The notes under the pieces were generated by a model that saw only the letters and a program-made list of their open reading frames with translations, was not told the DNA's origin and did no database searches. Position numbers and translations under genes: made by a program. Source: an uncultured Acidimicrobiales bacterium (lineage in GTDB: Bacteria; Actinomycetota; Acidimicrobiia; Acidimicrobiales; Hopanoidiivorantaceae). Taken from it: a DNA stretch of 64,000 bases. Location of the stretch: the NCBI GenBank assembly GCA_958295755.1, contig OY282367.1, positions 781,087 to 845,086 on the forward strand, in the 5' to 3' direction. Shown here piece after piece: positions 1,152 through 61,814 of the stretch (positions within the stretch are counted from its first letter, which is position 1; each line of letters starts with the position of its first letter).

Positions 1152-4100
1152 GTTGATGTTGACGCCATGCAGATTGATCAACAGCAGGATGGCGAACAGC
1201 AGGGCGGTGATGATGAGGGCGATGATGGCGAGCAAGAGGGTGGCGATGGTTCAGAAGGTGCAGGTGGAAGTGAAGGCGGTGATGGCTCAGAAGGTGAGGG
1301 CGGTGATGGTGAGCAAGAGGGCGATGATGACGAACAGCAAGGTGGTGATGGTGAGCAAGAGGGTGGTGACGGTTCTGAGGGCGAAGGCGGTGATGGCGAA
1401 CAGGGTGAGGAGTCAGAGGGTAATGGAGAAGGTGCGGGGGGGGGGTGCGGGTTCTGGAGGCGGTGATGAGTCTGAGGGTGAAGGTGGCAGCGAAGGCGGT
1501 GATGGTAGTGGTGAGGATGATGGCGGACAGCAGGGCGGTGATAGGTCAGAGGGTGCAGGTGGCAGCGAAGGTGCAGAGGGTGCAGGTGGCCAGGGCGACG
1601 ATGACCCCCCAGAAACACCTGAACCTACCCTAGAGGAGCGCGAAGGGCCTGAAGCTCAAAGGCAATTTTCTACAGGAGCGGTCAATATTCGAGCAGGGGC
1701 GATTGTCTATATTGATACTTTACGGTTTGCTATAAACCCACAACACCTGAATCAACCTTGCTCTTCATATTCGTTCGTCCCTCCGACTACCGCTAGCAGC
1801 GATTCAAAGATTGCCGACACGGATTGCCTCTTAAAATTCACATATAACGCACCTGGAGCAATATCTGTTGTTGCAGAAGGATCTCCCTTTGGGTATCGAG
1901 TAAATCTTGTAACCGACAATACAAGCAGAGGGAATATAACTTTCACTGCCCCGCCAACTCAAAATGTAGCAGCTGGCCAGAAGATCACTTTCAACGCCAC
2001 CACCTATTTACAAGAGGCCACTTCCGCTTACAGCATCTTTTGCCTTGAGCCCACCAATGTTAGCTCCAAGATCACCGTTAATCGTAAAGACTGTAACTAC
2101 GAGATCACCGCCAATAGCAACACAGCAGGCGCAGCCCAATTCACAGCGCGCTTCTCATCCACCGGTGGTGGCGCAACCGACGGTACCGAATATGTGATAG
2201 ACCGCGTCATATCGGTAGCCATCAGGGGCCCCGACCACATAACCTTCACTTCTCCAGCAAGTAACCCACCTGTCTCTGCGGGGCGAAGTATCACGATTGA
2301 TGCCTCAGATTATGCGTCCATCGCTAGCAGCTACACAATCACTTGCCAAGCACCCACCAGCATAGACGCTACCAAACTCACCTCCGTTACTCTCACCGCC
2401 AACACCTGCAACTATGTGGTAACAGCTAAAGCCGATGCTTATTCATCTGCACCTGGGGCAGATAACACAGCCACTTTCACTGCTAACTATGAAGGCAACC
2501 TCGGCTCCACTCAAACGGGTGTAATCACCGTCAGCATAAGACCACCCTCCAACATCACCTACACTGCGCCCCCAACCCTCAATGTAGCTCGCAACCTTAC
2601 GCTCACAATCAACGCTTTGGACTATATAACAGAAAACGCCGCCCATACCGTGTCATGTAATGATGCTGTCATCGCAGACTCTAGCCGAGTCTCTGTTTCC
2701 CATACTGGCAGTAGTTGTACTTTTACAGTAGACCCAGTAGACACCTTGGCTACCAACCTTCTGGGCGAAACTACATTTGATATACCCTTCACCTCCACCG
2801 GCGGCGATACTGAGACAGGCACATTCACAATCAACGTTGGTTCTGATTCAGTAGTTACTCGCTCCTCCACTATTCCCACAACTATTTCCAGAGGCAAGAA
2901 CCTAACAACATTCACCATTGACGCAACTGGCTGGGTTACCGACGGCGACTATGAAATCTCATGTGAAGATGCCACGATCGATAACAGAATCTATATCTCA
3001 CAAATCACACGAAGCGGCTGCATCTACACCATCACTCACACGGGTGTCGAAGGCTCTGGCAGTTATGCGACCTTCAAGTTTTCATCATCAAGCGGGGCAC
3101 CTACCTTCAATGTCACACCTACGATTACTATCGGCCCCAACTCCAACCTCATCTACACTACTCCAACAGGCTTGGAAGTGCCAAAAAACAGAACGATCAC
3201 CATCAATGCCTTAGATTACGCTACCGACGATTCAGCTTGGACGATCTCGTGTGGCGATGCCACCAGTGTTGATACCATCAAACTCACATCGGTAACGCGA
3301 GACACCAGTGGCGAGGGCTGCAAATTTACCATAGACCCCATAGATACCTTGGCTGATAGTGCGTTAGGCACTGCCACATTCAACATTCCATACACATCTT
3401 CAGGCGGTGCCACTCACATTGGACAAGTTAGTGTAGTTGTCGGACGTGCCACCAGCCTAACTTTCACACCACCCACTGGCTTAAGAGTTGCTAGCAATCG
3501 CACCTTAGAGATCAACGCTTTGTTGTATGCGACTGATCTCTCGCCTCACACTGTTACCTGCGGTGAAGCCGCGAATATCAACTTCACAAAGCTGATCTCA
3601 GTCACCCGCAATGGCTGCACCTTCACCGTTGATGCGATAGACGATCTGGCAGCCAACCTGCTGGGCAATACCACTTTCAATGTGGCGTTCACATCCACAA
3701 GCGGCAGTGCTTTACTCGGCACCTTTACCGTAAACATAGGCACTGCCTCCAATATCGCATTCACTCCCCCACCGACCACAGATAGCCTAATCGTGGGCAA
3801 GAATCTTACCAAAGTAATCAGTTTCAGTAGCTATGCCACAGATGGTCTCTACACTATCACCTGCGGTGCCGCAACTGGATTTGACAATGCCAAGCTCACT
3901 TCTGTTACCCGTAGCACTGGTTGCGACTACACCCTAGACCCAGTCGACACCTACGAAGGCACAGCTGCATTCACCATTCCATACACCTCCTCAGGCGGTG
4001 CCACCCACAACGGTGCAGTCACAATAACCATCGGTCCCGCTTCCAATATCGTATTCACTCACCCACAGACCGGGATGAGCATGATTAGAAATGAAACTTT

Positions 4101-34100: not shown

Positions 34101-37100
34101 TCCTACTACTGCGTCTAGTTTGATTTCTATTGGCACCCCTACTGGTTGTAGTGTTGAGATTACTGCTGGATCTACCACTGGCTCAGCTACTGTTTCTGTG
34201 GCATTTTCTTCTGATGGTGGTGCTACCGCTACCGACTCATTTACTATTGCTGTGGGTGCTGCTTCTAATATCGTGTTTGACGCGCCGTCTGGATTGAAAG
34301 TTGCTACTAATCGCACGAGAGTGATCAATGCGCTGTCACATGCCACAGACGGTGGTTATACCATTACTTGTGCAGATGCGACCAACATAGATACCACAGA
34401 GCTGCAGTCAGTTACGCGTATCACTTCTGGTGATGGTTGTTCGTTTACTATTACGCCTAAGAGTGTTCAGGGCGTAGCTACCTTTACTGTGCCTTTGACT
34501 TCAGATGGCGGCGACACCGAAAATGCGGTGTTTTCAATAGAGGTTGGCCCGGCTTCAACTTTTGCCTATAGTGCGCCGACTGGGCTGAAAATCGGTAGGA
34601 ATCGTACCCTTACTATTGATGCGCTGGAGAGTGTTACTGAAGATGCGGCATATGTGGTTACTTGTGGGGACGCTGCTGGGGTGGATGCTTCTAAGTTGAC
34701 GGTTACGCGGACTACTTCTGGTGATGGCTGTACTTTCACTGTGGATCCTGTAGATACACTGACCCCAAGCAATCAGGGTGATGTGACTTTCACGGTTACC
34801 TTTACTTCTAGCGGGGGCACTGATTCAGCTTCTAGCATTGACGGCACCTTCACCGTAAATATCGGTCCCGATTCAACTATTTCTTATGCCGCACCTGATG
34901 GGCTGAAGGTGGGGCGTAACCGCACACTTGAGATCAATGTGCTGGATCATGCTTCTGAAGCCAGCCCGTCTAGCTACGACATTTCTTGCGGTGATGCTAC
35001 CGGTGTGGATAACACCAAACTGACTGGGGTTACCCATACCGGTTCTAGCTGCAGCTTTACGGTAGATCCGATAGACGCTCTGGGTAGCTCTTTGCAGGGT
35101 GATACTACCTTCACTGTGCCGCTGACTTCCACTGGCGGTCATAGCTTGAATGCCACATTCACTGTCAATGTTGGCCCGGATAGCACTATCACCTATACCG
35201 CACCGACTGGGCTGAAGGTGGGGCGTAACCGCGCGCTTGAGATTGATGCTTCTGAGTATGTGGAAGAGACGGCTGGGAGCGGCTATGTGATTGCGTGCTC
35301 AGACGCTTCGGCTTTACATTCCAGACTTACCTCAGTTACTCGTACTGCTAATAGTTGTTCTTACACCATCACGCCAGCTAATACTGCCACATCGGGTGAT
35401 GCTACTTTCTCTATCACTTTTACCTCTGATGGTGGTCATTCCCATAGCGAGACGATAACGGTTGAGGTCGGCCCTGACTCAACTATTTCTTATGCCGCAC
35501 CCGATGGCCTGAAGGTGGGGCGTAACCGCACCTTGACTCTCAATGTGTTGTCTCACGCTTCTGAAGCTAGCCCCTTTACTGCGGACAACCCTAATGGTTA
35601 TACCATTTCTTGTGGCGATGCTACCGGTGTGGATAACACCAAACTGACTGGAGTTACCCATACCGGTTCTAGCTGTACTTTCACGGTTGATCCGATAGAC
35701 GCTCTGGGTAGCTCTTTGCAGGGTGATACTACCTTTAGTGTGCCGCTGACTTCCACTGGCGGCCATACCCTAGATGCCGCTTTCAGTGTGAACATCGGCC
35801 CCGACTCAATTATTACCTATAGTGCGCCCGATGACCTGTCGATTGCTGCTGGTCGGAGCTTTGTGGTTGATGCTTCTGGTTATGTGGAGGAGACGGCTGG
35901 GAGTGGTTATGTAATTACCTGTGGTGATGCTGTTGGAGTGGATAGCACTAAGTTGGCTGGGGTTACTCGTTCGGGTTGTTTCTTCACGGTTGAGGCATCT
36001 GCTACAGCCGCTAGCGGTGTGACTACCTTTGTTGTGCCGTTCTCTTCTGAAGGTGGTCATAACCTTAATGGAACTTTCAGTGTTGATATTGGTGCGACAT
36101 CTGACATTACATTTACGGCTCCCTTGGGCGGGTTGAGTATTCCTGTGGGACAGTTCAGGAATTTCAGTGTTTCTAGCTACGCCACAGACGGCGACTACAC
36201 CATTTCTTGTCGTTTTGCTGATGCTTCTCGCCATGCCCTGATTGCTTCTGTGGCCAATACTGGCTGTGATTTCACTGTGCGTGCCGGCAGGGTTGCTGGT
36301 GCGGCAACGCTTAGTGTTATCTATAACTCATCTGGTGGTGATGAGGTTACTGGTGTGATTCCTATCACGGTGGCGTCTAGTTCTAGTTTGACTTTCACCT
36401 CGCCTAGTGCTTTGAATATGCGCATAGGCCAGACAATAGGCATCAACGCTCGGCTATATGCTTCTGATGGTGCTAACGCGGTTAGTTGTGGGGTAGCAAC
36501 TGGGGTACAAGGTGGGATTACTGTTGCTTCTCCGGTGGGTTGTTCGTATCGGGTAACAGCAGGCAATGTGACTGGGACGGCTTCATTTGTAGTGCCTTAT
36601 GCCTCTAGTAGTGGTAGCACGCTAAGTGGTCGCATTGATATCAATATCTTGGGCGACAGATCAGATATTGACTTCACTGCGCCGGCTGGGTTGTCGGTTG
36701 CAGCTAATGGTGTTATCACGATAGACGCTTCAAGTTATGTTTCTGATGTTCCATTTAGTGTTTCTTGTGGCACTATTACACAAGCTCACTCGCTCATTTC
36801 TAGCATTTTTGAAGATGGCTGCTCTTATGAGGTAACCGTTGGAGCTACTGCGGGAACAGCTACTTTCACTGTGCCATATATCTCAACTGGGGGCGATACC
36901 CATGATGGTGTGATTTCTTTGGTTATAGGTGCTGTTCCCACTCTGGACGCTACCGGATGTACCGATGGCACCTTTGTGGATGTCACTGCCAATCCCAGAG
37001 TTACGGGTGCTAATAACGATCTAGTAGAAGATTGCCAAGCATTGGTAGCGGCTCAGAATTTGTGGGCTGGGGTTGCTGCCAATGGTGAACTGCGTTCTTC

Positions 37101-40100
37101 TTATTTCATTCGAACTTGGGGCACGGGCACTCCCGAACAGCAAAATATAACTAGCTGGGAAGGTGTAACAGTTACCTCAGGGCGTGTAACAGGGTTGGAG
37201 ATAGACAATATTGGCGAAGAAGACGGTATCTCAGGTAGTATTCCTACCGAGCTAGGCAATCTTACTGCGCTTAGCAGTCTGGATATTTCATATAACCAGC
37301 TCAGCGGTGTTGTCCCCACTCAGATAGGTTCGCTTACCGCGCTTACTTCTCTGGATCTTTCTGGCAACCAGCTAACTGGTGCTATTCCCACCCAGATCGG
37401 CTCTTTGACGGCTCTTACTTCTTTGGATCTTTCTGCTAACCAGATAAGCGGTGCTATCCCGACGCAGATCGGTTCGCTTGTTTCTCTTACACAGCTCTCC
37501 TTGGGTAGTAACGATCTCTCCGGTGCTATCCCCACCCAGCTTGGCTCCCTTACTTCTCTTACTGATCTTTATCTAGGCGGTAACCGCCTCACCGGGTCTG
37601 TTCCCACACAGCTAGGCACTATCACAACTCTCACTACGCTCAGTATCTGCAACAACCAGCTCACTGGGGATCTGCCCACAGCCCTGCGAACAGGTGTTAC
37701 CTTGCTCGGCTACCCCACTGCTGATGGCTATACCCCCGTAGCCTGTCAGAACGCGGTATCCAACATCGTTTTCACTGCTCCCCTGAACCTCAAAGTTGGT
37801 CGGAACTTCACCCTTGAGATTGATGCCTCTGATTACATTACTGAGGATGCTAGCTACACGGTTTCTTGTGGTGATGCTACGAGCGTGGATAGCACCAGGT
37901 TGACTTCGGTTTCTCGTACTGCTGATACTTGTACTTTCACTGTGGATCCCATTGACACTTTGGTCGTGGGTTCTCAGGGTGATGCTACCTTTGTTGTGTC
38001 GTTTACCTCAACTGGCGGTGCTACAGCTAGTGGCACCTTCACTGTGAATATTGGTCCGGATTCATCAGTTGCTGTTGATTCGTCTAGTTCTATTGCTGTT
38101 GCTGCTAGCCGTTCTATTGCTGTTGATTTCTCTGATTATGCTTCTGATGGGGATTACACCGTTTCTTGTGGCACTCCTACAACTTCATCTAGTTTGATTA
38201 CTATCGGGACTCCTACTGGTTGCAGTGTTGAGATTACTGCTGGATCTACTACTGGCTCAGCTACTGTTTCTGTCGCCTTTACCTCTGATGGTGGTGCTAC
38301 GGCTACGGGTTCGTTTACTGTTGATGTGGGTGCTGCTTCTAATATCGTGTTCAGCGCGCCGCCTGGGTTGAAAGTTGCTACTAACCGCACGAGAGTTATC
38401 AATGCCTTAGATTATGCTTCTGATGGTGACTACACCGTTACTTGTGGTGATGCGACTGCTATAGATAGCACAGAGCTAGACACAGTAGTGCGTGCTACTT
38501 CTGGTGATGGTTGTTCGTTTACTATTACGCCTAAGAGTGTTCAGGGCGTAGCTAGCTTTACTGTGCCACTTACCTCCGCTGGTGGAGACACACGCGATGG
38601 GGTGTTTTCTATAGAGGTCGGCCCGGCTTCAACTTTTGCCTTTAGTGCGCCGTCTGGATTGAAAGTCGGTCGTAATCGCACTTTGGTTATTGATGCGCTG
38701 GAGCATATTACTGAAGATGCTGCCTATGTGGTTACTTGTGGTGATGCGGCTGGGGTGGATGCCTCTAAGTCGACGGTTACGCGGACTACTTCTGGTGATG
38801 GTTGTACTTTCACTGTGGATCCTGTAGATACTCTGGCAGTTGGTGATCAGGGGGATGTGACTTTCACGGTTACCTTTACTTCTAGCGGAGGCACTGATTC
38901 AGCTTCTTCTATTGAAGGCACATTCACCGTCAATATCGGCCCTGATAGCACTATTTCTTATAGCGCACCGACTGGGCTGAAGATCGGTCGTAATCGCACT
39001 TTAGTTATTGATGCGCTGGAGCATATTACTGAGAATTCCGCTTACACAGTTACTTGCGGTGAGGCTACTGGTGTTGACACCTTGAAGCTCACCTCTGTCA
39101 CGCGCACCACTTCTGGCGATGGTTGTACTTTCACCGTAGACCCGATTGACACTCTTGTTGTCGGCTCACAAGGCGATACGACTTTCACAGTCACTTTCAC
39201 CTCAGACGGCGGAGCCACAGCCAACGGCACTTACACCGTCAATATCGGCCCTGATAGCACTATTTCTTATAGCGCACCGACTGGACTGAAGATAGGTCGG
39301 AACTACACCCTTGATATCAATGTATTATCTCACGCTAGTGAAGTTAGCTCGTCTAGTTATTCGGTTTCTTGCGGTGATGCTACTGGTGTGGATAACACCA
39401 AACTCACCGGTGTAACCCATACAGGTTCTAGTTGTACGTTCACGGTAGATCCGATTGATACTCTCGCTAGCAACTTGCAAGGTGACACTACCTTCACTAT
39501 CCCCCTCACCTCCACTGGCGGCCATACCTTAGATGCCGCTTTCACTGTAAATATTGGCCCGGATTCATCAGTTACCGTTGATTCGTCTAGTTCTATTGCT
39601 GTTGCTGCTAGCCGTTCCCGCACGATTGATTTCTCTGATTATGCTTCTGATGGGGATTACACCGTTTCTTGTGGCACTCCTACAACCGCGTCGTCTTTGA
39701 TTACTATCGGGACTCCTACTGGTTGTAGTGTTGAAATTACTGCTGGATCTACTACTGGCTCAGCTACTGTTTCTGTCGCCTTTACTTCTGATGGCGGTGC
39801 TACGGCTACGGGGTCGTTTACCTTTGCTGTGGGTGCTGCTTCTAATATCGTGTTCAACGCGCCTGCTGGTCTAAAAGTTGGTACTAACCGCACGATAGTT
39901 ATCAATGCGTTGTCACATGCCACAGACGGTGGCTACACGATTACTTGCGGTGATGCGACCAGCATAGATAGCACAGAGCTAGACACAGTAGTGCGTGATT
40001 CTTCTGGTGCTGGTTGTTCGTTTACTGTTACGCCTAAGAGTGTTCAGGGCACTGCTAGCTTTACTGTGCCACTCACATCAGAAGGTGGTGACACCGAAAA

Positions 40101-43100
40101 TGCGGTATTTTCTATCACTGTTGGCCCTGAAAGCACTATTACCTATAGTGGGCCAACTGGGCTGAAAGTGGGCCGTAATCGCAGTCTCATTATTGATGCT
40201 TCTGGTTATGTGGAGGAGACGGTTGGGAGTGGCTATGTGATCTCTTGTTCAGACGCTTCTAGTTTGCATTCCAGGCTTAACTCAGTTGCCCGCACTGCTA
40301 ATAGTTGTTCTTATACCATCACGCCTTCTAGTACTGCCACATCGGGTGATGCTACATTTACTATTGCTTTCACATCCGATGGCGGTCATTCTCGTGGTGA
40401 GACAATAACGGTCGAGATAGGCCCTGACTCAACTATTACCTATACCCCACCTTCAGGGCTGCTGGTTGGTCGTAATCGCACTCTTGAGATTGATGTGTTG
40501 GATCATATAACCGAGGACAGTGTCTATACCGTTTCTTGTGGCGATGCTACTGGTGTGGATAACACCAAGTTGACTGGGGTAACTCATACCGGCTCTAGTT
40601 GTACCTTTACGGTAGATCCGATAGACACACTAGGAAGTAGCTTGCAGGGTGATACTACCTTTACCGTGCCTCTCACTTCCACTGGCGGCCATAGCTTGAA
40701 TGCCACCTTCACTGTCAATGTTGGCCCGGATAGCACTATTTCATATACCGCACCTACTGGGTTGAAGGTGGGGCGTAATCGCACCTTGACTCTCAATGTG
40801 CTCTCTCACGCTTCTGAAGCCAGCCCGTCTAGTTATTCCATTTCTTGTGGTGATGCCACTGGTGTGGATAACACCAAGTTGACTGGAGTAACTCATACCG
40901 GCTCTAGTTGTACCTTTACGGTAGATCCGATAGATGCTTTGGCTAGTAGTTTGCAGGGTGATACTACCTTTACCGTGCCTCTCACTTCCACTGGAGGTCA
41001 TACCTTAGATGCTGCCTTTACCGTAAACATCGGCCCTGATAGCACTATTTCCTACAGTGGGCCAACTGGGCTGAAAGTGGGTCGCAATCGCAGTCTCATT
41101 ATTGATGCTTCTGGTTATGTGGAGGAGACGGCTGGGAGTGGCTATGTGATCTCTTGTTCAGACGCTTCTAGTTTGCATGCCAGGCTTACCTCAGTTACTC
41201 GCACTGCTAATAGCTGTTCTTATACCATCACGCCAGCTAGTACTGCCGCATCGGGTGATGCTACATTTATTATTGCTTTCACATCCGATGGTGGTCATTC
41301 TCGCAGCGAGACGATAACGGTTGAGGTCGGCCCCGATTCAACTATTACATATAGTGCGCCAGATGACCTGTCGGTTGCTGCTGGGCGGAGTTTCGTGTTT
41401 GATGCTTCGGGCTATGTTGAGGAGACAGCTAGTAGTGGTTATGTGATCTCTTGTGGTGAAGCTACTGCGGTGGAGACTTCCAAGATCACTGTTACTCGCA
41501 ATGGCTGTATCTTTACTGTTACTGCAGATAGTTCAGCAGCTGCGGATGCGACTATCTTTGTTGTGCCGTTCTTTTCTACTGGTGGCCATAGCCTTGATGG
41601 GCCTTTCAGAATTGATATTGGCGCGACATCTGATATTACCTTTACTGCCCCTGCGGGTGGGGTGAGTATTCCTGTGGGGAATTTCAGGAATTTCAGTGTT
41701 TCTAGCTATGCCACTGATGGGGATTACACCATTTCTTGTCGTTTTGCTGACTCCAGCCGCCATGCTTTGATTGCCTCAGTTGCCAACACTGGTTGTGATT
41801 TCACTGTGCGAGCTGGCAGTGTCGCTGGCGCGGCGACGTTGTCTGTTATCTATAACTCATCTGGTGGTGATGAGGTAACTGGTGTGATTCCAATAACGGT
41901 GGCGTCTACTTCTAGTTTGACTTTCACTGCGCCTAGTGCTTTGAATGTGCGCATAGGCCAGATAATTGGCATCAATGCTCGCCTTTATGCTTCTGATGGT
42001 GCTAACGCGGTTTCTTGTGATGTAGCAACTGGGGTAGTCGGTGGGATTACTGTTGCTTCTCCGGTGGGTTGTTCGTATCGGGTAACAGCAGGCAATGTGA
42101 CTGGGACGGCTTCATTTGTTGTGCCTTATGCCTCTGCTAGTGGCAGCACGCTTAATGGTCGTATTGATATCAATATTTTGGGTGCTAGTTCTGATATTGA
42201 CTTCACCGCGCCGACAGGTCTATCAGTAACAACAGGGGGTGTTATCACCATAGAAGCTTCAAGTTATGTTTCTGATGGCCCGTTTAGTGTTTCTTGTGGC
42301 ACTATTACACAAGCTCACTCGCTTATTTCTAGCATTTTTGAAGATGGCTGTTCTTATGAGGTAACTGTGGGAACTAGCACGGGCACAGCTACCTTTACAG
42401 TGCCCTATACCTCAACTGGTGGCGATACCCACAATGGTGTGATTTCTTTGGTTATAGGTGCTGTTCCCACTCTGGACGCTACCGGTTGTACCGATGGTAC
42501 TTTTGTTGATGTCACTGCCAATCCCAGAGTTACTGGTGCTAATAACGATCTTGTAGAAGATTGTCAAGCTCTAGTTGCGGCTCAGAATCTGTGGGCTGGG
42601 ATAGCAGTCAATACTGATTTGCGTTCTTCTTATTTCATTCGAACTTGGGGCACAGGCACTCCCGAACAGCAAAAGATAGCTAGTTGGGAAGGTGTAACAG
42701 TTACTTCTGGGCGCGTAACAGGGTTAGAGATAGACAATGTCGGCGAAGAAGACGGCATTTCAGGTTCTATCCCCACACAACTAGGCTCTCTAACAGCACT
42801 CACCGGCCTAGATGTTTCATATCATCAGCTCAGCGGTGCTATTCCTACACAGATCGGCTCTCTCACGGCACTCACAGCCCTGGATCTTTCTGGCAACCAG
42901 CTAACTGGTACTATTCCCACCCAGATCGGCTCTTTGACGGCTCTTACTTCTTTGGATCTTTCCGCTAATCAGATCAGCGGTGCTATCCCGAGCCAGCTTG
43001 GTTCTCTTGCGGCTCTTACTCAGCTTTATCTAGGTAGTAACCAGCTTTCTGGTGCTATTCCTACGCAGTTAGGTTCGCTTAGCTCTTTGACTGATCTTTA

Positions 43101-46100
43101 TCTAGGTGGTAACCGCCTTACTGGGTCTGTTCCTACTGAGCTTGGCACCATCACGACTCTTGGCACCTTTAGTATCTGTAACAACCAGCTCACCGGAGAC
43201 CTGCCGGTAGCTCTGCGAACAGGTGTTACTCTTATCGGCTACCCAATCGCAGATGGTTATACACCGATTGCTTGTCAGAACGCGGTTTCTAACATCGTGT
43301 TCAGCGCGCCACAGAATCTCAAGGTCGGTCGGAACTTCACCCTTGAGATTGATGCTTCGGATTACATTACTGAGAACAGTGCTTACACGGTTTCTTGTGG
43401 TGATGCTACTGGTGTGGATAGCACTAGGTTGACTTCGGTTTCTCGCACTGCTGATACTTGTACTTTCACTGTGGATCCGATTGATACTCTGGCTAGTAGC
43501 TTGCAGGGTGATACTACCTTTAGTGTGCCTCTTACCTCCACTGGCGGCCATAGCCTAGATGCCACTTTCACTGTTAATGTTGGCCCTGATTCAGATATTT
43601 CATATACCGCACCCACTGGGCTGCTCGTCGGCCGTAATCGCACCCTTGTGATTGATGCTTCTGGTTATGTGGAGGAAACGGCTGGGAGTGGTTACACCAT
43701 TACTTGCTCAGATGCTTCATCTGTTCATGTCAGGCTCACATCTGTAACCCGCACAGCCAATACCTGCTCCTACACCATCGACCCAGCCGACACTGCCACA
43801 TCAGGTAATGCTACATTTACTGTTACTTTTACCTCTGATGGCGGACATTCTCGCAGCGAGACGATAACTGTTGAGGTCGGCCCTGACTCAACTATTACCT
43901 ATACCCCACCTTCAGGGCTGCTGGTTGGTCGTAATCGCACTCTTGTGATCGATGTGTTGGATCACATAACCGAGGACAATGTCTATACCGTTTCTTGTGG
44001 GGATGCTACTGGTGTGAATGGCACTAGGTTGACTGGGGCAACTCATACCGGCTCTAGTTGTACCTTTACGGTAGATCCGATTGATACTCTGGCTAGTAGC
44101 TTGCAGGGCGATACTACCTTTAGTGTGCCTCTCACCTCCACTGGCGGTCATAGCCTAGATGCCACTTTCACTGTTAATATTGGCACTGATTCAGCTATTG
44201 CGGTTACTCCGCCCAGTTCCATTGCTATTGTTGCAAGCCGTTCCCGTACGGTTGATTTCTCAGATTATGCTTCTGATGGTAGCTACACCATTTCTTGTGG
44301 TACTCCTACTACTTCGTCTTCTTTGATTTCTATTGGCACTCCAACTGGTTGTAGCGTTGAGATTACTGCCGGTGCTAGCACTGGTCAAGCTACTGTTTCT
44401 GTCGCCTTTACTTCTGATGGTGGTGCTACAACTACGGGTTCGTTTACTGTTGATGTGGGTGCTGCATCTAATATTGATTTCACCGCCCCCACCGGTCTCA
44501 AAGTCGCTACTAACCGCACGAGGGTTATCAATGTCTTAGATTTTGCTTCTGATGGCGGTTACACCGTTACTTGTGGGGATGCGACCAACGTAGATACCAC
44601 TGAGCTGCAGTCAGTTGTGCGTGATACTTCTGGTGATGGCTGTTCGTTTACTGTTACGCCTAAGAATGTTCAGGGCGCGGCTAGCTTTACTGTGCCACTC
44701 ACCTCCGCTGGTGGCGATACCGAAAATGTGGAGTTTTCTATAGAAGTTGGCCCGGCTTCAACTTTTGCCTATAGTGCGCCGTCTGGGCTGAAGGTGGGTC
44801 GAAATCGCACTTTGGTTATTGATGCGCTGAGCCGTATAACTGAAAATAGTGCCTATGTGGTGTCTTGTAGCGACGCTTCAGGAGTGGATGCTTCTAAGTT
44901 GACGGTTACGCGGACTACTTCTGGTGATGGTTGTACTTTCACTGTGGATCCGGTAGATACACTGTCAAGTGGCGATCAGGGTGATGTGACTTTCACAGTT
45001 ACTTTTACTTCTAGCGGGGGCACTGATTCAGGTTCTAGCATTGACGGCACATTTACTGTAGAGATCGGCCCCGATAGCACTATTTCTTATACCGCACCCA
45101 CCGGCTTGAAGGTTGGTCGTAATCGCAGCCTTGAGATTGATGTGTTGTCTCATGCTTCTGAAGCCAACCCGTCTAGTTATTCCATTTCTTGTGGTGATGC
45201 TACGGGGGTGGATACAGACAAGCTGACTGGGGTAACCCGTACGGGTGCTAGTTGCACCTTTACGGTTGATCCGATAGATAATCTCGCTAGTAGCTTGCAG
45301 GGCACCACTACCTTTTCTGTGCCGCTGACCTCTACTGGCGGTCATAGCCTAGATGCCACCTTCACTGTAAACATCGGCCCCGACTCAACTATTACCTATA
45401 GTGCGCCAGATGACCTGTCGGTTGCTGCTGGACGGAGTTTCGTGTTTGATGCTTCGGGTTATGTTTCAGAGACGGCTGGGAGCAGTTACACCGTTTCTTG
45501 TGGTGAGGCTACTGGTGTAGATACTTCTAAGATCACGGTTGCTCAAAGAACTGCTGTGTCTACTAACACTGGTCTTCCAACTACTGGCACGAATTGTCTC
45601 TTTACTGTTACCGCAGATAGTTCAGCAACTAGTGGTGCGACTACTTTTGTTGTGCCGTTTTCTTCTGATGGTGGCCATAGCCTTGAGGGGACTTTCAGTA
45701 TTGCTGTTGGCGCGGTTTCAGATATTGTATTTACGGCTCCTGCGGGTGGGTTGAGTATCCCTGTGGGGAATTTCAGTAATTTCAGTGTTGCTAGTTATGC
45801 CGCAGATGGGGATTACACCATTTCTTGTCGTTTTGCTGATTCCAGCCGCCATGCTTTGATTGCATCTGTGGCCAATACTGGCTGTGATTTCACGGTGCGA
45901 GCTGGCAATGTCGCTGGCGCGGCGACGCTTAGTGTTATCTATAACTCATCAGGTGGTGATGAGGTTACTGGGGTGATTGCTATCACGGTGGCTTCTACTT
46001 CTAGTTTGACTTTCACCGCACCTACTGCCTTGAATGTGCGCATAGGCCAGACGATTGGCATCAATGCTCGCCTTTATGCTTCTGATGGTGCTAACGCGGT

Positions 46101-49100
46101 TGCTTGTGATGTAGCAACTGGGGTACAAGGTGGGATTACTGTTGCTTCTCCGGTGGGTTGTTCTTATCGGGTTACAGCAGGCAATGTGACTGGGACGGCT
46201 AGCTTTGTTGTGCCCTACACCTCAAGTAGTGGCCGCACGCTTAGTGGTCGTATTGATATCAATATTTTGGGTGCCAGTTCTGATATTGACTTCACCGCAC
46301 CAACAGGTTTGACGGTTGCTGCTAGTGGTGTTATCACCATAGATGCTTTGGGGTATGCGTCTGATGGGCCGTTTAGTATTTCTTGTGGCACTGTCACGCA
46401 GTCTCACTCGCTTATTTCGAGTATTGCTGAAAATGGTGGTTGTTCTTATGAGGTAACCGTTGGAGCTACTGAGGGCACGGCTACCTTCACAGTGCCATAT
46501 AGCTCTACTGGTGGCGATACCCATAATGGTGTGATTTCTTTGGTTATTGGTGCTGTCCCAACATTGGCGGCTACGGGTTGTACTGATGGCACTTTTGTGG
46601 ATACCACAGATAACCCCAGAGTTACAGGTGCTAATAACGATCTAGTTGAAGATTGCCAGGCATTAGTAGCAGCCCAGAACCTATGGGCTGGGGTTGCAGC
46701 TAATGGTGAGCTACGTTCTCCTTATTTCATACGAAGCTGGGGCACGGGCACTCCCGAACAACAAAAGGTATCTAGTTGGGAAGGTGTCACAGTTACTTCA
46801 GGGCGTGTAACAGGGTTGGAGATAGACAATATCGGTGAAGAAGACGGCATCTCAGGTACTATTCCTACCGAGTTGGGTAACCTCGTGGCACTCACCAGCC
46901 TTGACCTCTCTTATAACCAGCTCAGCGGCACAATCCCCACACAAATCGGCACCCTTATCGCGCTTACTTCTTTGGATCTTTCTGGCAACCAGCTAACTGG
47001 TACTATTCCCACCCAGATCGGCTCTTTGACAGCTCTTACTTCTTTGGATCTTTCTGCTAACCAGCTAAGCGGTGCTATTCCCACCCAGATTGGTTCGCTT
47101 ACTTCTCTAACTGAGCTGTCTTTGGGTAGTAACGATCTCTCTGGTGCTATCCCCACTCAGCTTGGCTCGCTTAGTTCTCTTGTTCAGCTTTATCTAGGCG
47201 GTAACCGCCTCACCGGTTCTGTTCCCACACAGATAGGTGCTATCACCACCCTTAACATGCTCAGTATCTGCAACAACCAGCTCACAGGTGATCTGCCTAC
47301 AGTCCTGCGCACAGGCGTTACTTTGCTGGGTTACTCAACTGCTGATGGCTATACCCCGATTGCTTGTCAGAACGCGGTTTCTAATATCGTTTTCGAAGCT
47401 CCCCAGAACCTCAAGGTTGGTCGGAACTTAACTCTTGAGATTGATGCTTTGGATTACATTACTGAAGATGTCAGTTACACGGTTTCTTGTGGTGAAGCTT
47501 TGAGCGTGGATAGCACTAGGTTGACTTCGGTTTCTCGTGCTGCTGATACTTGTACTTTCACCGTGGATCCCTTAGATACTCTGGCTAGCAGCTTGCAGGG
47601 ATCCACTTCCTTTACTGTGCCGCTCACTTCTACTGGTGGTGCTACAGCTAGTGCCACCTTCACTGTAGAGATCGGCCCCGATTCAAGTATCACCGTTAGC
47701 CCGCCTTCCTCTATTGCTGTAGCGGCTAGCCGTTCCCTCACGGTTGATTTTTCTGATTATGCCACTGATGGCAGCTATACCATTTCTTGTGGCACCCCCA
47801 CTACCTCATCTACTTTGATTACTATTGGCTCTCCAACTGGTTGTAGTGTTGCTATCACTGCTGGAGCCAGCACTGGTCAAGCTATTGTTTCTGTGGTTTA
47901 TACCTCAGATGGTGGTGCTACGGCTACGGGTTCGGTTACTTTTGATGTGGGTGCTGCTTCTAACATTGTGTTCAGCGCGCCTACAGGTCTGAAAGTTGCT
48001 ACTAATCGCACGAGGGTGATCAATGTCTTAGATCATGCTTCAGATGGCGGTTACACCGTTACTTGTGGTGATGCGACTGCTATAGATACCACTGAGTTGC
48101 AGTCGGTAACGCGTGATTCTTCCGGCGATGGTTGCTCGTTTACTATCACGCCTAAGGCAGTCACTGGCACTGCTAGCTTTACTGTGCCTCTCACCTCAGA
48201 TGGCGGCGATACCGAAAATGCGGTGTTTGCTATTGAAGTTGGCCCGGCTTCTACTTTTGCCTATAGAGTGCCCTCTGGTTTGAGTGTCGCTCGTAACCGC
48301 ACTCTTAGTATTGATGCTTTGGATCAGATAACTGAAGATGCTGCTTATGTGGTGTCTTGTAGTGATGCTTCAGGTGTAGATGCCAGCAAGTTGACAGTTA
48401 CCCGCACTACTTCTGGTGATGGTTGTACTTTCACTGTGGATCCCGTCAATACTCTCACTCCAAGCAATCAGGGTGATGTGACTTTCACAGTTACCTTCAC
48501 TTCTAGCGCAGGCACTGATTCAGCTTCTACTATTGAAGGCACCTTTACCGTAAACATCGGCCCTGATTCAACTATTTCTTACACCGCACCCACTGGTTTG
48601 AAGGTTGGTCGTAACCATACCCTTGAGATTGATGTGTTGTCTCATGCTTCTGAAGCCAGCCCGTCTAGTTATTCCATTTCTTGTGGTGATGCTACCGGGG
48701 TGGATAACACCAAACTCACAGGTGTAACCCACACGGGTTCTAGTTGTACTTTCACTGTAGATCCCATTGATACTCTGGCTAGTGGCTCGCAGGGCAACAC
48801 TTCTTTTGCCGTGCCGCTTACCTCCACTGGCGGTGCTACAGCTAGTGCCACATTCACCGTAAACATCGGCCCCGACTCAACTATTGCGGTTACTCCGCCT
48901 AGCTCTATTGCTGTTGCTGCTAGCCGTTCCCGCACTATTGATTTCTCAGATTATGCCACAGATGGTAGCTATGACATTTCTTGCGGGACTCCTACTACTT
49001 CGTCGTCTCTGATTACTATTGGCACTCCAACTGGTTGTAGTGTTGCTATTACTTCTGGTGCTTCTATGGGTACAGCTACTGTTTCTGTGGTCTTTACTTC

Positions 49101-52100
49101 TGAGGGTGGTGCTACGGCTACGGGTTCGTTTACCTTTGCTGTGGGTGCTGCTTCTAATATCGTGTTCACCGCTCCTACAGGTCTAAAGCTCGGCACTAAC
49201 CGCACGAGAGTTATAAATGCGCTGGATTACGCCACTGATGGTGGTTATACCATTACTTGTGGTGATGCGACTGCTATAGATACCACAGAGCTGCAGTCAG
49301 TTACGCGTGATAGCTCCGGCGATGGCTGTTCGTTTACTATCACACCTAAGAATGTTCAAGGCACTGCTAGCTTTACTGTGCCTCTCACCTCAGATGGTGG
49401 CGATACTGAAAATGCGGTATTTTCTATAGAAGTTGGCCCCGCTTCAACTATTACCTATATCGCACCTACTGGCTTGAAGGTTGGGCGGAACCGCACTTTG
49501 GTGATTGATGCTTCTGGGTATGTGGAGGAGACGGCTGGTAGCAGTTACACCGTTACTTGTTCAGATGCTGCTTCTGTTCATTCCAGGCTTACCTCAGTAA
49601 CTAGAGCTGCTAATAGCTGTTCTTATACCATCACGCCTACAAGTTCTGCCACATCGGGTAATGCTACTTTTGGGATTACTTTCACTTCTGATGGTGGCCA
49701 TTCCCGTAGCGAGACGATAACTGTAGAAATCGGCCCCGATTCAACTATTACATATAGTGCGCCAGATGACCTGTCGGTTGCTGCTGGGCGGAGTTTTGTG
49801 TTTGATGCTTCGGGTTATGTTTCAGAGACGGCTGGTAGTGGCTATGTGATTACTTGTGGTGAGGCTACTGGGTCGCTTCCTGCGGGGGTCACTATTGTTC
49901 GTGGTGGTGATGCTTCTCGTGTGGATCTTTCTGATGCGGAAGCTGTAGCTCGCAATGGTTGTATCTTTACTGTTACCGCAACTAGCTCAGCTACTGCGGG
50001 GGCTACTTCCTTTGTTGTGCCGTTCTCTTCTACTGGCGGCCATACCTTAGATGCGACTTTCAGTGTTGATGTCGGAGCGGTTTCAGATATTACATTTACA
50101 GCACCTGTAGGCGGGTTGAGTATTCCTGTGGGACAGTTCAAGAATTTCAGTGTTGCTAGCTATGCCACTGATGGGGATTACACAGTTTCTTGTCGCTTTG
50201 CTGATTCCAGCCGACATGCTTTGATTGCCTCAGTTGCCAATACTGGTTGTGATTTCACTGTGCGTGCTGGCAGTGTCGCTGGCGCGGCGACGCTTAGTGT
50301 TATCTATAACTCATCAGGTGGCGATGAGCTAACTGGGGTGATCCCTATCACGGTGGCGTCTACTTCTGCGCTGACATTTACAGCACCTAGTGCTTTGAAT
50401 GTGCGTATAGGTCAGACAATAGGCATCAATGCTCGCCTTTATGCTTCTGATGGTGCTAACGCGGTTGCTTGTGATGTAGCAACTGGGATACAAGGTGGGA
50501 TTACTGTTGCTTCTCCGGTGGGTTGTTCTTATCGGGTTACAGCAGGGAACACTACTGGAGTGGCTAGTTTTGTTGTGCCTTATGCCTCTGCTAGTGGTAG
50601 AACGCTTAATGGTCGTATTGATATTAATATTTTGGGTGCTAGCTCAGATATAGACTTCACCGCGCCAACAGGTTTGACGGTTGCTGCTAGTGGTGTTATC
50701 ACGATAGATGCTTCAAGCTATGTGTCTGATGGGCCGTTTAGTATTTCTTGTGGCACTGTCACGCAGTCTCACTCGCTTATCTCGAGCATTGCTGAAAATG
50801 GTGGTTGCTCTTATGAGGTAACCGTTGGAGCTACTGAGGGCACGGCTACCTTCACAGTGCCATATAGCTCTACTGGTGGCGATACCCACAATGGTGTGAT
50901 CTCTTTGGTCATTGGTGCTGTCCCAACATTGGCGGCTACAGGATGTACCGATGGCACCTTTGTAGATACCACAGATAACCCCAGAGTTACAGGTGCCAAT
51001 AACGATCTAGTAGAAGATTGCCAAGCATTGGTAGCCGCTCAGAATTCGTGGGCTGGGGTTGCTGCCAATGGTGAGCTACGTTCTCCTTATTTCATAAGAA
51101 GCTGGGGCACGGGTACACCCGAACAGCAAAAGGTTGCTAGTTGGGAAGGTGTGACAGTTACTTCAGGGCGTGTAACAGCACTAGAGATAGACAATATTGG
51201 CGAAGAAGACGGCATCTCAGGTTCTATTCCTACCGAGTTGGGCTCCCTCACCTCACTCACCAGCCTAGACATCTCATATAATCAGCTCACCGGCACAATC
51301 CCCACACAAATCGGCACCCTTACCGCGCTTACTTCTTTGGATCTTTCTGGCAACCAGCTAACTGGAGCTATCCCGACTCAGATTGGTTCTCTCACCGCGC
51401 TCACAACCCTAGACCTTTCTGGCAATCAGCTCAGCGGTGCTATTCCCACCCAGATTGGTTTGCTTACTTCTCTTACTGAACTCTCCTTGGGTAGTAACGA
51501 TCTCTCTGGTGCCATCCCCACCCAGCTTGGCTTGCTTACTTCTCTTGTTCAGCTTTATCTAGGCGGTAACCGCCTCACCGGTTCTGTTCCCACACAGATA
51601 GGTGCTATCACCACCCTTAACACACTCAGTATCTGCAACAACCAGCTCACAGGTGATCTGCCTACAGCCCTGCGCACAGGCCTTACTTTGCTGGGTTACC
51701 CAACTGCGGATGGTTATACCCCCATAGCTTGTCAGAACGCGGTTTCCAACATCGTTTTCACAGCTCCCACCGGTCTCAAAGTCGGTCGGAACTTCACCCT
51801 TGAGATTGATGCTTCGGATTATTTTACTGAGGACAGCTCTTACACGGTTTCTTGTGGTGAAGCTTTGAGCGTGGATAGCACCAGGTTGACTTCGGTTTCT
51901 CGTGCTGCTGATACTTGTACTTTCACCGTGGATCCCATTGACACTTTGGTGGTGGGTTCTCAGGGCGATGCTACCTTTACTGTGCCGCTCACCTCAACTG
52001 GTGGCCATAGCTTGGATGCCACATTCACAGTCAATATTGGCCCGGATTCTAGTGTTTCGGTTTCTGCGCCTTCCTCTATTGCTATTGCTGCTAGCCGTTC

Positions 52101-55100
52101 CCGCACTATTGATTTCTCAGATTATGCCACTGATGGCAGTTATACCATTTCTTGTGGTACTCCTACTACTGCTTCGTCTTTGATTACTATTGGCACTCCA
52201 ACTGGTTGTAGTGTTGCTATCACTGCTGGAGCTAGCACTGGTCAAGCTAGTGTTTCTGTGGTCTTTACTTCTGAGGGTGGTGCCACGGCTACGGGTTCGT
52301 TTACTTTTGATGTGGGTGCTGCTTCTAACATTGTGTTCAGCGCGCCTACAGGTCTGAAAGTTGCTACTAACCGCACGAGGGTTATCAATGTCTTAGATCA
52401 CGCCACAGACGGCGGCTACACCATCACTTGTGCTGGTGCAACTGCTGTAGATACCACAGAGTTGCAGTCAGTTACGCGAATCACTTCTGGCGATGGCTGC
52501 TCGTTTACTGTCACACCCATGGCAGTCACTGGCACTGCTAGCTTTACTGTGCCTTTGACTTCTGATGGTGGCGATACCGAAAATGCGGTGTTTGCTATTG
52601 AAGTCGGCCCGGCATCAACCTTTACTTATAGCGTGCCGACTGGGCTGAAAGTGGGGCGTAACCGCACTTTGGTTATTGATGCGCTGGCGCGTATAACTGA
52701 AGATTCTGCCTATGTAGTGTCTTGTAGCGACGCTTCAGGAGTGGACGCTTCTAAGTTGACGGTTACTCGGACTACTTCTGGTGATGGTTGTAACTTCACT
52801 GTAGATCCAGTCAATACTCTCACTCCAAGCAGTCAGGGTGATGTGAGTTTCACAGTTACCTTCACTTCTAGCGGAGGCACTGATTCAGCTTCTACTATTG
52901 AAGGCACCTTCACCGTAAACATCGGCCCAGATAGCACTATTTCTTACACCGCACCCACCGGGTTGAAAGTGGGTCGTAACCATACCCTTGAGATTGATGT
53001 GTTGTCGCACGCTTCTGAAGCCAGCCCGTCTAGTTATTCGGTTTCTTGTGGTGATGCTACTGGTGTGGATAGCACCAGGCTAACTTCGGTTTCTCATACG
53101 GGTTCTAGCTGTACCTTCACGGTAGATCCGATAGATAATCTGGCTACCAGCTTGCAGGGCGACACTACCTTCACAGTGCCGTTGACCTCCACTGGCGGCC
53201 ATACCTTAGACGCCACCTTTACTATGAATATTGGCTCGGATAGCACTATTACCTATACCCCACAGACTGGATTGAAGACTGGCCGTAACCGCACCTTAGT
53301 GATTGATGCTTCTACCTATGTTTCTGAGACTTCTGGTAGTGGCTATGTGATTGCGTGCTCGGATGCTTCGGCTTTGCATTCCAGGCTTACCTCAGTTAGC
53401 CGCACGGCTAATAGCTGTACTTACACCATCACCCCTTCAACCGCCGCAACAGCGGGTAATGCTACATTCTCTATTACTTTCACCTCCGACGGTGGCGATT
53501 CCCGCTCTGGGACGATAACAGTTGAGATCGGCCCCGATAGCACTATTACATATACCGCGCCCACAGGGCTAAAGGTCGGTCGTAATCGCACGCTTGTGAT
53601 TGATGTGACAGAGTATGCTACTGAAGCGAATCCATCTAGCTACAACATCTCGTGTGGTGATGCTAGCAGTGTGGATAGCACCAAGTTGACTTCGGTTTCT
53701 CATACGGGTTCTAGCTGTACTTTCACGGTTGATCCGATTGATACTTTGGCTAGCAGTTTGCAGGGTGATACTACCTTCACTGTGCCGCTCACCTCTACTG
53801 GTGGACATACCTTAGATGCCACTTTCACTGTAAATATCGGCCCGGATAGTACTATTTCTTATACCGCGCCTACCGGGTTGAAGGTGGGCCGTAACCGCAC
53901 ACTAGTGATCGATGTGACAGATCACGCCACTGAAGCCAATCCTGCTAGCTACGACATTTCTTGTGGGGATGCTTCTGGGGTAGATAGCACCAAGTTGACC
54001 GGGGTAACCCACACTGGTAGTAGTTGTACCTTCACGGTAGATCCGATAAATACTCTGGTTAGTGGCTCACAGGGTGATGTGACTTTCACTATTCCACTGA
54101 CCTCCACTGGCGGTCACAGCCTAGATGCCACCTTCACTGTAAATATCGGCCCCGATAGCACTATTACCTATACCCCACCATCTGGGCTGCTCGTGGGGCG
54201 TAACTTTACCCTTGAGATAGATGTGTCAGAGCATGCCACTGAAGTCAGCGCGTCGAGCTACGACATTTCTTGTGGTGATGCCACTGGTGTGGATAATACC
54301 AAACTGACTGGGGTTACTCACACGGGTTCTAGTTGTACCTTCACTGTAGATCCGATTGATACTTTAGTTAGCGGCTCACAGGGCCCGACTTCATTTACTG
54401 TGCCGGTTTCATCTACTGGAGGCCATACCTTAAATGCCACTTTCACGGTCAATATTGGCCCGGATTCTAGTGTTACGGTTTCTGCGCCTTCTTCTATTGC
54501 TGTTGCTGCTAGCCGTTCCCGCACTATTGATTTCTCTGATTATGCCACAGATGGCAGTTATACCATTTCTTGTGGTACTCCTACTACTGCTTCGTCTCTG
54601 ATTTCTATTGGTGCTCCTAGTGGTTGTAGTGTTGCGATTACTGCTGGTGCTACTCAGGGCACAGCTACTGTTTCTGTGGTTTATGCCTCTACCGGTGGTG
54701 CTACCGCTACGGGTTCGTTTACTTTTGATGTGGGTGCTGCTTCTAACATTGTGTTTAGCGCGCCTACAGGTCTGAAAGTTGCTACTAATCGCACGAGGGT
54801 TATCAATGTCTTAGATCACGCTTCAGATGGCGGTTACACCGTTAGTTGTAGTGATGCGACTGCTATAGATGCCACAGAGCTGCAGTCAGTTACGCGTATC
54901 ACTTCTGGTGATGGTTGTTCGTTTACTGTCACGCCTAAGAGTGTTCAGGGTGCCGCTACTTTCACTGTGCCTTTGACTTCTGATGGTGGCGATACCGAAA
55001 ATGCGGTGTTTTCTATAGAGGTTGGCCCGGCTTCAACTTTTGCTTATAGTGCGCCGACTGGGCTGAAAGTGGGGCGTAACCGCACTTTGGTTATTGATGC

Positions 55101-58100: not shown

Positions 58101-61100
58101 CTTGATGATAGGTCGTAATCGCACCCTTGAGATTGATGCTTCTGGTTATGTGGAGGAGGTTGCTGGTAGCGGTTATGCCATTACTTGTTCAGATGCTACG
58201 AGTTTGCATTTCAGGCTTACCTCAGTTACTCGCACTGCTAATAGCTGTTCTTATACCATCACACCTTCAACCACTGCCACACCAGGCAATGCTAGTTTCT
58301 CGATTACTTTCACATCAGATGGCGGTGACTCCCGCATTGAGATGATAACGGTAGAGATCGGCCCCGATAGCACTATTTCCTATACCGCACCGGATGGACT
58401 GAAGATAGGGCGTAACCGCACCCTTGAGATTGATGTTTCGGACTATATATCTGAGAACAGTGCCTACACAGTGTCTTGCGGCGATGCTACCGGCGTAGAT
58501 AACACCAAACTCACTGGGGTAACTCATAGCGGTTCCAGTTGCACCTTCACCGTAGACCCCATCAACACTCTCGCTAGCGGCTCACAAGGCGACACTACCT
58601 TCACTATCCCCCTCACCTCCACTGGCGGCCATACCTTAGATGCCACATTCACCGTCAACATCGGCCCTGACTCAACCATCACCTTCACTGCGCCACCCAC
58701 CTCTGGTGCTGGCAGCTTACTGGTAGGCACCAACCGCACTCTGAGAATAGACGCTTCGGACTATGTCACAGAAGCCCACAGCGGTTATATCATCACCTGC
58801 GGCAACGCTACAAACATCAGCAACGAAATAGACAGTATTGTGCGTGATTCAGGTAGCTGCTCTTATGACATTACTCCCAAACCCACAGCAGCTCAGGGTG
58901 GGGCTAGTTTCACTGTGCCTTATACCTCAGACGGTGGACATACTCTGAGCGGCACGATCATTGTGAATATTGGTGCCGACTCAACTATCAGCTACACCGG
59001 ACCGCCCATTAGTGGCGCAGGCAGTTTAATCGTTCCCATAAGCACATCTAAAACGATTGATGTCTCCAGCTATGCCACCGACGGTGCCTACACCATAACC
59101 TGCGGTGATGCTATCAATCTCCACTCCAGACTCGAATCTGTTACTCACACAGGCACCAGCTGCAGCTATGAAGTAACAGCAGGTGCTATAGAGGGTTCAG
59201 CAAGCTTCAATGTGCCTTATAAATCCACAGGCGGACACGAGATGACCGCTCTAGTTCGCCTTACCATCGGCCCAACCTCTGCCATACAATTCAGTGCTCC
59301 GACTGGGTTGCAAGTAAATATCGGGAGCACCATCACCATAGATGCTTCAAACTACGTCACAGACGGCCCCTACGACATCACCTGTGGCACAGCTACTGGT
59401 GTTTCGCTGGCATCAGTAGTACAGTCGGTGTCAGATACTACAGGTTGTACCTATGTGGTGACACCCAGCAGCACTGGAACTGGCACATTTACGGTGCCTT
59501 ACACCTCCAGCGGCGGCGACGCTCTCCCCGACTCTGGCCCACCCGCCCGCACGTCTCAGATATCTATCAGCATCTATCCGGCATCTAGTATCAGCTTCAC
59601 TGCTCCGACAGGTCTGTCGGTATCGGCAGGTAACTCCATCACAGTAGATGCTTCCAGCGCATCAGATGCCAACCCCACCTATACCGTCTCATGTGGCAAT
59701 GTCACTAGTTCACATGAGAGAATCAACAGCATTACTCGCACAGGATGTGAGTATGAGATAAGGGCAGGCAGTGAGGCAGGCACCGCTTCTTTCAGCTTTG
59801 AGTTAATCTCCAGAGACAGTGGAGGCACCATACAATCCACTGGCAATTTCCAAATCACTATCACCATTACAGAGCTTTCTAATATCATCTTCACCGTGCC
59901 TACAGACTTGGTGGTGCAAGCAGGCAGTGCCATCACAATCAATGCAGCCGACTACGCCACAGACGGCAGCTATACGATCACCTGCGGCGATGCCGTTGCG
60001 AGCTCTCTTGTTTCGGTAACCCACACTACCAATACTTGTACATACACAGCGACCGCTGCTGCAAGCACGACTGTTGTACCTCTTAGTGCTGGCTTCTCCG
60101 TGCCTTACACTTCTAGCGGTGGCGACAGCTACAACGGTCGCATAAATATCATTATCAACCCGACTTCCAATATCATCTTCACCGCTCCGACAGATTTGGA
60201 GATAGGCGCAGGCAATACCCGCACTGTGAACCTCTTAGCAGGCTATGCCACTGACACTATCTACACCATCACCTGCGGCAACGCCACAGCTTCAGACACA
60301 GCCAGGCTCACCTTAATAGAGCGCAACGGGTGCGACTACACCATAACAGCAGCCGCAGATGCCACACAGGGCGACACCACCTTCACTCTTACTTATACCT
60401 CCACTGGCACAGATACCCACGACGCCACGATCACTATAGATATAGGCCCGCCTTCTGAGATTATCTTTACGGCCCCGTCACAGATTCCTGTCGTTCCTGC
60501 CGGCACCACTATGACAATCGATGTCGGCTCTTATGTGGAAGATGGTTTGTACACCATCATTTGCGCTCCGGCTACAGATGTGGATGAAAACAGAATTGCA
60601 AGCATTGTCAACAACGGTTGTAGTTATACGGTCACAGCAGCGGCAGTGCTAGGCGAAGCCACCTTCACCGTACCTTATAGGTCAACTGGCGGTGACACTA
60701 TGGACAGTGCCGTCACTGTTAGGATTTCTGCTCCTCCAGCACCGTCAAGGCGGACCGGTATTGTTAGAGATGCAAGCGCAGATGATCCTCCGCCTGTGTT
60801 CATTGAAGCAGCTGAACCTGACGAGTTGGGATTGCGTTGGGTAACCTTCACGGTGCAACAAGGCGGCACTACGGCTTTGCGAGTTCTCAGGGCAATGGGT
60901 CTTCCAGACAACCAGAGCATCTACTACTGGAGCACGAGAACGCTGTCGTGGGTGCGTGTTACCAGCCTCAGCCAAAGACTGCCTTCTGGCACGATGATCT
61001 CCTTCCAGATAGACGCGGAAGTTTCACAAGATAGGACTGAAGTCAGCAACCTTGGCAGTGGTACTCAGCAAGCCAGTCTTACTCAGGGATGGAACATTGT

Positions 61101-61419: not shown

Positions 61420-61460
61420 CAACAGTTAGGTGGGGCGGTGTATCTATCGGTTGCGAAAGT

Positions 61461-61814
<354 letters not shown>

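Follow-up and report, generated by a model that had tools for sequence, protein, structure and literature searches.

Homopolymeric runs act generally as switches (PMC2831843). The Campylobacter phasome, in which 53% of poly-G tracts are G9 and 26% G10 by PhasomeIt, resembles the tract set described below in its many poly-G tracts per genome, its G9-G10 peak and the location of most tracts inside reading frames, and differs from it in carrying C on the coding strand in 5% of tracts, against 25 of the 43 5'-proximal tracts here (PMC6321876). Bifidobacterium breve, also a member of the Actinomycetota, likewise has surface-protein genes split by an intragenic G-tract (the sortase pili of bbr_0113 and bbr_1889; PMC9187656). 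In bbr_1889, G10 is the off state and G9 fuses the frames, and tract lengths vary within the population (PMC9187656). For B. breve a reference length of G11 also contrasts with a population that is mostly G12 (PMC9187656). The B. breve case differs from the present one in that its targets are pilus clusters and its slippage has been measured, and no second serial tract was seen described there (PMC9187656). Gardnerella, another actinobacterial example, is rich in tracts of at least 8 nucleotides at surface-protein and methyltransferase genes, and a tract length of 9 versus 10 was confirmed by Sanger sequencing; its genomes hold a median of 20 G/C tracts and A/T tracts are commoner, as opposed to 69 G/C and 25 A/T here (PMC11287997). 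Apilactobacillus kunkeei, a symbiont with a small genome, also encodes several giant surface proteins, of 3,000-8,000 aa compared with about 20,000 here (PMC12863079). A survey states that proteins of more than 20,000 residues are unlikely to bear a signal peptide (PMC11573180).

Poly-G switching of surface proteins is therefore already established, Actinomycetota included, and what the present locus brings is a new lineage and an exceptionally large target. The window, a stretch of 64,000 nucleotides, spans positions 781087-845086 on a single contig of 2.29 Mb from an uncultured bacterium of the same genus as Candidatus Hopanoidivorans cymbastelae (Acidimicrobiales, Actinomycetota), the sole congener among the genomes searched, whose metagenome-assembled genome is referred to as the sister species. 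Positions in the giant gene and its neighbours, such as 958 and 1436, are window coordinates; those of paralogs (209346 and the like) and of other loci in the genome refer to the whole contig. The relative's species name and isolate label suggest that it came from a marine sponge. A scan of genome contigs for a second assembly of the same species returned the sister species alone. A literature search, with most subscription journals outside its reach, found no paper on phase variation in this group; lineage, target size and the locked orientation of the tracts are new within the literature that could be searched, and it is the strand lock that could turn out to be novel. A ten-G run (tract 2) near the start of the window is read here, with a probability of about 0.8, as a simple-sequence contingency locus that switches an exported, adhesin-like giant protein by replication slippage. 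The features of the locus are as follows.

2 to 517, + strand: end of an FGGY-family sugar kinase gene, the left neighbour (Pfam FGGY_C 8e-30)
910 to 957, + strand: candidate true N-terminus from ATG910, MSDFTAEDSKSLYRQD, leading into tract 1, from local alignment to tract-bearing paralogs
958 to 967, + strand: tract 1, a G10 run absent from the sequence-only reading made earlier
984 to 1466, + strand: frame-0 open reading frame from GTG984, with signal peptide and acidic linker, stop at 1464-1466
1026 to 1166, + strand: signal peptide from ATG1026, MDVYRSISQ...VLFAATAVDVDA, an alternative start 3' of tract 1, read by eye and aligned to paralog signal peptides
1167 to 1435, + strand: acidic Gly/Glu/Asp linker in frame 0, 98% G/E/D/S/Q over 84 residues
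1436 to 1445, + strand: tract 2, a G10 run at whose assembled length the frame breaks
1446 to 61419, + strand: giant body in the +1 frame, about 19,990 codons free of stops, beginning with the same linker composition
1930 to 60735, + strand: 185 Ig-like repeats, median spacing 101 aa, exactly two Cys in 183 of 185
36937 to 37761, + strand: LRR block 1, about 275 aa (Pfam LRR_1 8e-24)
42466 to 43290, + strand: LRR block 2, a gap in the Ig repeats, sequence resembling block 1
46558 to 47382, + strand: LRR block 3, a gap in the Ig repeats, sequence resembling block 1
50923 to 51747, + strand: LRR block 4, a gap in the Ig repeats, sequence resembling block 1
60727 to 61416, + strand: C-terminal domain common to 19 loci here and 12 in the sister species
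61456 to 61814, - strand: RNase P RNA gene (Rfam RF00010), directly after the giant

The signal peptide, with SLFVLFMVVALFASVLFAATAV as its hydrophobic core, and the tandem Ig-like domains give the gene the make-up of a candidate giant Ig-repeat surface adhesin. A two-repeat model reached pLDDT 97.3, and its Foldseek matches were Ig, cadherin and SraP-type sandwich folds. The C-terminal domain occurs almost nowhere else in the order; it had no match among NCBIfam or PDB sequences, and its AF2 model was poor (pLDDT 59). Paralogs of the giant in the genome measure 14266, 8809, 6868, 6001 and 5763 aa. An LRR-like module (CTDGTFVDLTANPRV) also heads further tract-bearing secreted proteins (548083, 603864, 2206935 and 2216766). 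The sister species has an orthologue of the FGGY kinase (on its contig C4), followed directly by the RNase P RNA gene (L144:2033-2411) with no giant between, and the syntenic place from the kinase to the PNPOx gene spans 2.7 kb. Relative to the flanking genes, the RNase P RNA gene has opposite orientations in the two species, at the site where one carries the giant and the other lacks it.

The sequence-only reading had placed a frame break at tract 2, with a signal peptide and acidic linker in frame 0 ending 19 bases past the run, the same linker composition resuming in the +1 frame ahead of some 20,000 open codons, and nine or twelve Gs joining the two, and each part of this anatomy holds. 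The frame-0 stop lies at the expected place; residues G, E, D, S and Q account for 98% of the translation upstream of the run in frame 0 and for 90% downstream of it in frame +1, compared with 13-18% in the other frames; codon log-odds move from frame 0 to frame +1 at the run; no stop interrupts the +1 frame (in the codon phase of 1096) before 61419; and frame arithmetic gives -1 or +2 as the changes that fuse the frames. A length change at tract 2 thus switches the reading frame of one gene. The window contains two G10 runs, both at or above the slip-prone length of 8, against a shuffle mean of 0.05 (at least two in 2 of 100 shuffles). A scan upstream of the giant gene turned up no promoter, and no obvious Shine-Dalgarno sequence was seen at ATG910, GTG984 or ATG1026. 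Around tract 2, a 51-nt fold was no better than shuffles (z -0.34, with DNA parameters, a weak test), and a structured frameshift signal was rejected on this result. A mobile-element origin of the tracts was likewise rejected, tracts 1 and 2 having only a 14-nt context in common.

That context, CG10TGC (CGGGGGGGGGGTGC), is identical at the two runs. Read from ATG910, the assembled length of tract 1 puts translation out of register with the signal peptide and brings it to a TAG at 1021-1023. Three paralogs (209346, 230128 and 234039) begin with a short N-terminus (..SKSL..) that continues through a G9 into RDAE..ER and the signal peptide, all in frame. Pieces of the window upstream of tract 1 align to these paralogs with scores reached by 0 to 55 of 2000 shuffles, and those downstream with scores reached by 0 of 2000; because the pieces flanking tract 1 align in this way, ATG910 is probably the start typical of the family. 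With ATG1026 or GTG984 as the start, tract 1 falls in the leader, and the break at tract 2 stays regardless. Two serial tracts, both off-frame to the family start, are an unusual consensus state and count against a switch.

Runs of at least 9 Gs number 62 in this genome and 67 in the sister species, as against mostly 0-12 in 57 further genomes from the family and order, three of which have 27-33. Run lengths here are distributed as 33 of G7 (excluding a repeat array at 50.4-53.5 kb), 7 of G8, 32 of G9, 18 of G10, 8 of G11 and 4 of G12-G14, with 69 runs of at least 8; the sister species has 40 of G9 and 23 of G10. Because of the dip at 8 and the peak at 9-10, the runs of nine and more are treated as a separate class, and this class is seen in two separate assemblies, that of the present genome and the fragmented one of the sister. 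Runs of at least 8 As number 25 in all. Of the 62 tracts, 43 are 5'-proximal, falling between -150 and +350 nt relative to the beginning of an open frame no shorter than 200 codons, compared with 28% of random positions drawn from the tract-centred stretches examined; enrichment in the sister is weaker (41 of 67, or 61%, against 46% of random positions) under a looser criterion. The associated genes, counted as open frames without curation, encode secreted repeat proteins, Type ISP, HsdM and HsdS proteins and several DNA methyltransferases, and some appear pilin-like from a reading of their N-termini; a few tracts are found at housekeeping genes, such as those for PEPCK and ribonucleotide reductase. 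The tracts are over-represented in the genome and are found at surface and restriction-modification genes, as in contingency loci.

Several individual loci in the genome are also of interest. A Type ISP restriction-modification gene (L056, 282251-285894) has three tracts (282251, 285213 and 285362), with two more in an overlapping frame downstream, and a second three-tract locus (L069, 1094620-1095040) resembles, in its flanks, a sister-species locus with two tracts; these are multi-switch modification genes, possibly a phasevarion. In two copies that are identical over 610 nt (L059, 410779 and 413176), a C10 lies between the Shine-Dalgarno sequence (AAGGAGGA) and a GTG start, possibly acting as a spacer-length translation switch, not a frame switch. 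A G7-bearing repeat recurs about 44 times, every 70-75 nt, in the region 50422-53534, which is probably a CRISPR array and has a G10 (52107) in one spacer region. Genes with a pilin-like N-terminus (ERGITLQTLIVTAVLVLVAVGAA) cluster at L065 (926000-942000), L066 and L075, each gene with its own G/C tract, and the sister genome has scattered tract-bearing homologues of these pilin-like genes. The longest tracts (13-14, at 1720563, 1973659 and 1995805) are found at a pair of genes for DNA methyltransferases, of the N6/N4 and C5 types, and at an open frame.

Coding tracts are assembled in both frame states, in frame at 209346, 230128, 234039 and 400674, and out of frame at 403012, 417872, 548083 and 603864; at 417872 the run lies right behind the signal peptide and is out of frame, the same arrangement as in tract 2. 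The paralogs at 400674 (G10) and 403012 (G9), 86.5% identical, are in opposite states. At a locus other than tract 2, the duplicates at 937353 (C9) and 939623 (C10) share 97.6% identity across 409 nt; the sole indel between them is one tract base, which flips the frame. No other observation points as directly to slippage in the lineage as this length difference between near-identical copies, itself taken from assembled lengths. In the sister species, tracts inside the hydrophobic core of signal peptides leave some genes in frame and others out. A search for an orthologous tract of differing length between the two species gave no clean one-to-one pair, flanks of the tract loci aligning weakly, and only pilin-like and restriction-modification genes of the same families could be matched. 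Together with the genus-wide tracts and the length peak, the paralog states and the duplicate pair support the poly-G phase switch that had been proposed from the sequence.

The tracts are also oriented with respect to replication. With the origin side set near dnaA at 2.036 Mb, 60 of the 62 runs of at least 9 have G on the leading strand, whichever the gene direction (binomial p 8e-16, somewhat optimistic because both switch points were set by eye on the same data), compared with 2 of 7 G8 runs and a mixture among G7 runs. In the sister, 62 of 69 same-contig tract pairs agree in orientation (0 of 20000 shuffles). Since orientation follows replication and not the gene, C is on the coding strand in the 25 of 43 5'-proximal tracts noted above. 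A search for MutS found none here or in nearly all relatives searched, both genomes of the genus being incomplete; NucS was found in the assembly. In mycobacteria, NucS is not known to repair indels. A wider proposition, possible but put forward only tentatively, is a replication-oriented phasome throughout the genus, in which some 60 leading-strand poly-G tracts per genome, slipping in the direction set by the fork and with no MutS match, would switch giant Ig/LRR proteins, pilin-like proteins and DNA methyltransferases, the 20,000-aa protein being placed under two serial tracts.

The strongest rival to a switch is a miscount at tract 2, the true run being in frame in essentially all cells and the gene constitutively on. 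The assembled count of 10 could be one off: G-homopolymers of 9-10 commonly attract sequencing or assembly errors, the published G-tract lengths of B. breve UCC2003 disagree with deep single-molecule counts (PMC9187656), and the giant body, whose runs of 5-6 were called correctly because the frame holds, has no longer run on which the platform could be judged. Such an error would account for the count at best, and not for the tract, the genus-wide set or the length class, which recurs in the separate, fragmented assembly of the sister; paralogs, moreover, occur in both states, although a slippery tract is itself compatible with a miscall, and a constitutively expressed giant is considered unlikely. 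About equally unlikely is that mutational G-expansion on the leading strand produced the runs as a side effect, with no selection for switching. The orientation of 60 of the 62 runs, the agreement within contigs of the sister and the tracts at housekeeping genes would fit such a bias, which by contrast predicts neither the lack of strand preference in G7 and G8 runs nor the clustering of tracts at 5' ends, many of them in surface and restriction-modification genes. Bias and selection may also act together, the one shaping the supply of tracts and the other retaining them.

Slippage during expression can arise at homopolymers through the polymerase or the ribosome, and some full-length protein might be made in this way from G10 with the DNA unchanged, perhaps beside DNA slippage. 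No stimulating structure was seen, however, in the weak 51-nt fold test (z -0.34, DNA parameters), and the two DNA states of near-identical paralogs require DNA slippage anyway; this explanation of the G10 is held to be very improbable. Least probable of all is a young pseudogene, permanently silenced by a frameshift at the run. As assembled, neither tract is in frame and the syntenic place in the sister lacks the giant, as silencing would allow; yet a 60-kb gene, once silenced, should soon lose its intactness, and tracts this long should easily revert. Decay is argued against because the body is intact over some 20,000 codons, with no stop or second frameshift and with the two Cys kept in 183 of 185 repeats.

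The switch at tract 2 would accordingly work by replication slippage that adds or removes Gs. When the run length brings linker and body into a common frame, an exported, adhesin-like giant of about 20,100 residues would be made (ON), and at other lengths translation would stop soon past the run (OFF), the assembled state corresponding to OFF. Tract 1 would probably form a second gate if translation begins at ATG910. Slippage at tract 2 in the living population, export and adhesion are the steps that we infer.

Should this reading hold, poly-G slippage, hitherto known mainly from pathogens and gut bacteria, would control in a probable sponge symbiont a protein that ranks among the largest exported ones predicted for bacteria, together with dozens of other surface and DNA-modification genes. 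The locus also illustrates how the signal peptide of a giant protein can escape gene callers, and the leading-strand lock provides a testable clue to the origin and persistence of the tracts. Metagenomic reads would then allow a direct test of phase variation in an animal-microbe symbiosis.
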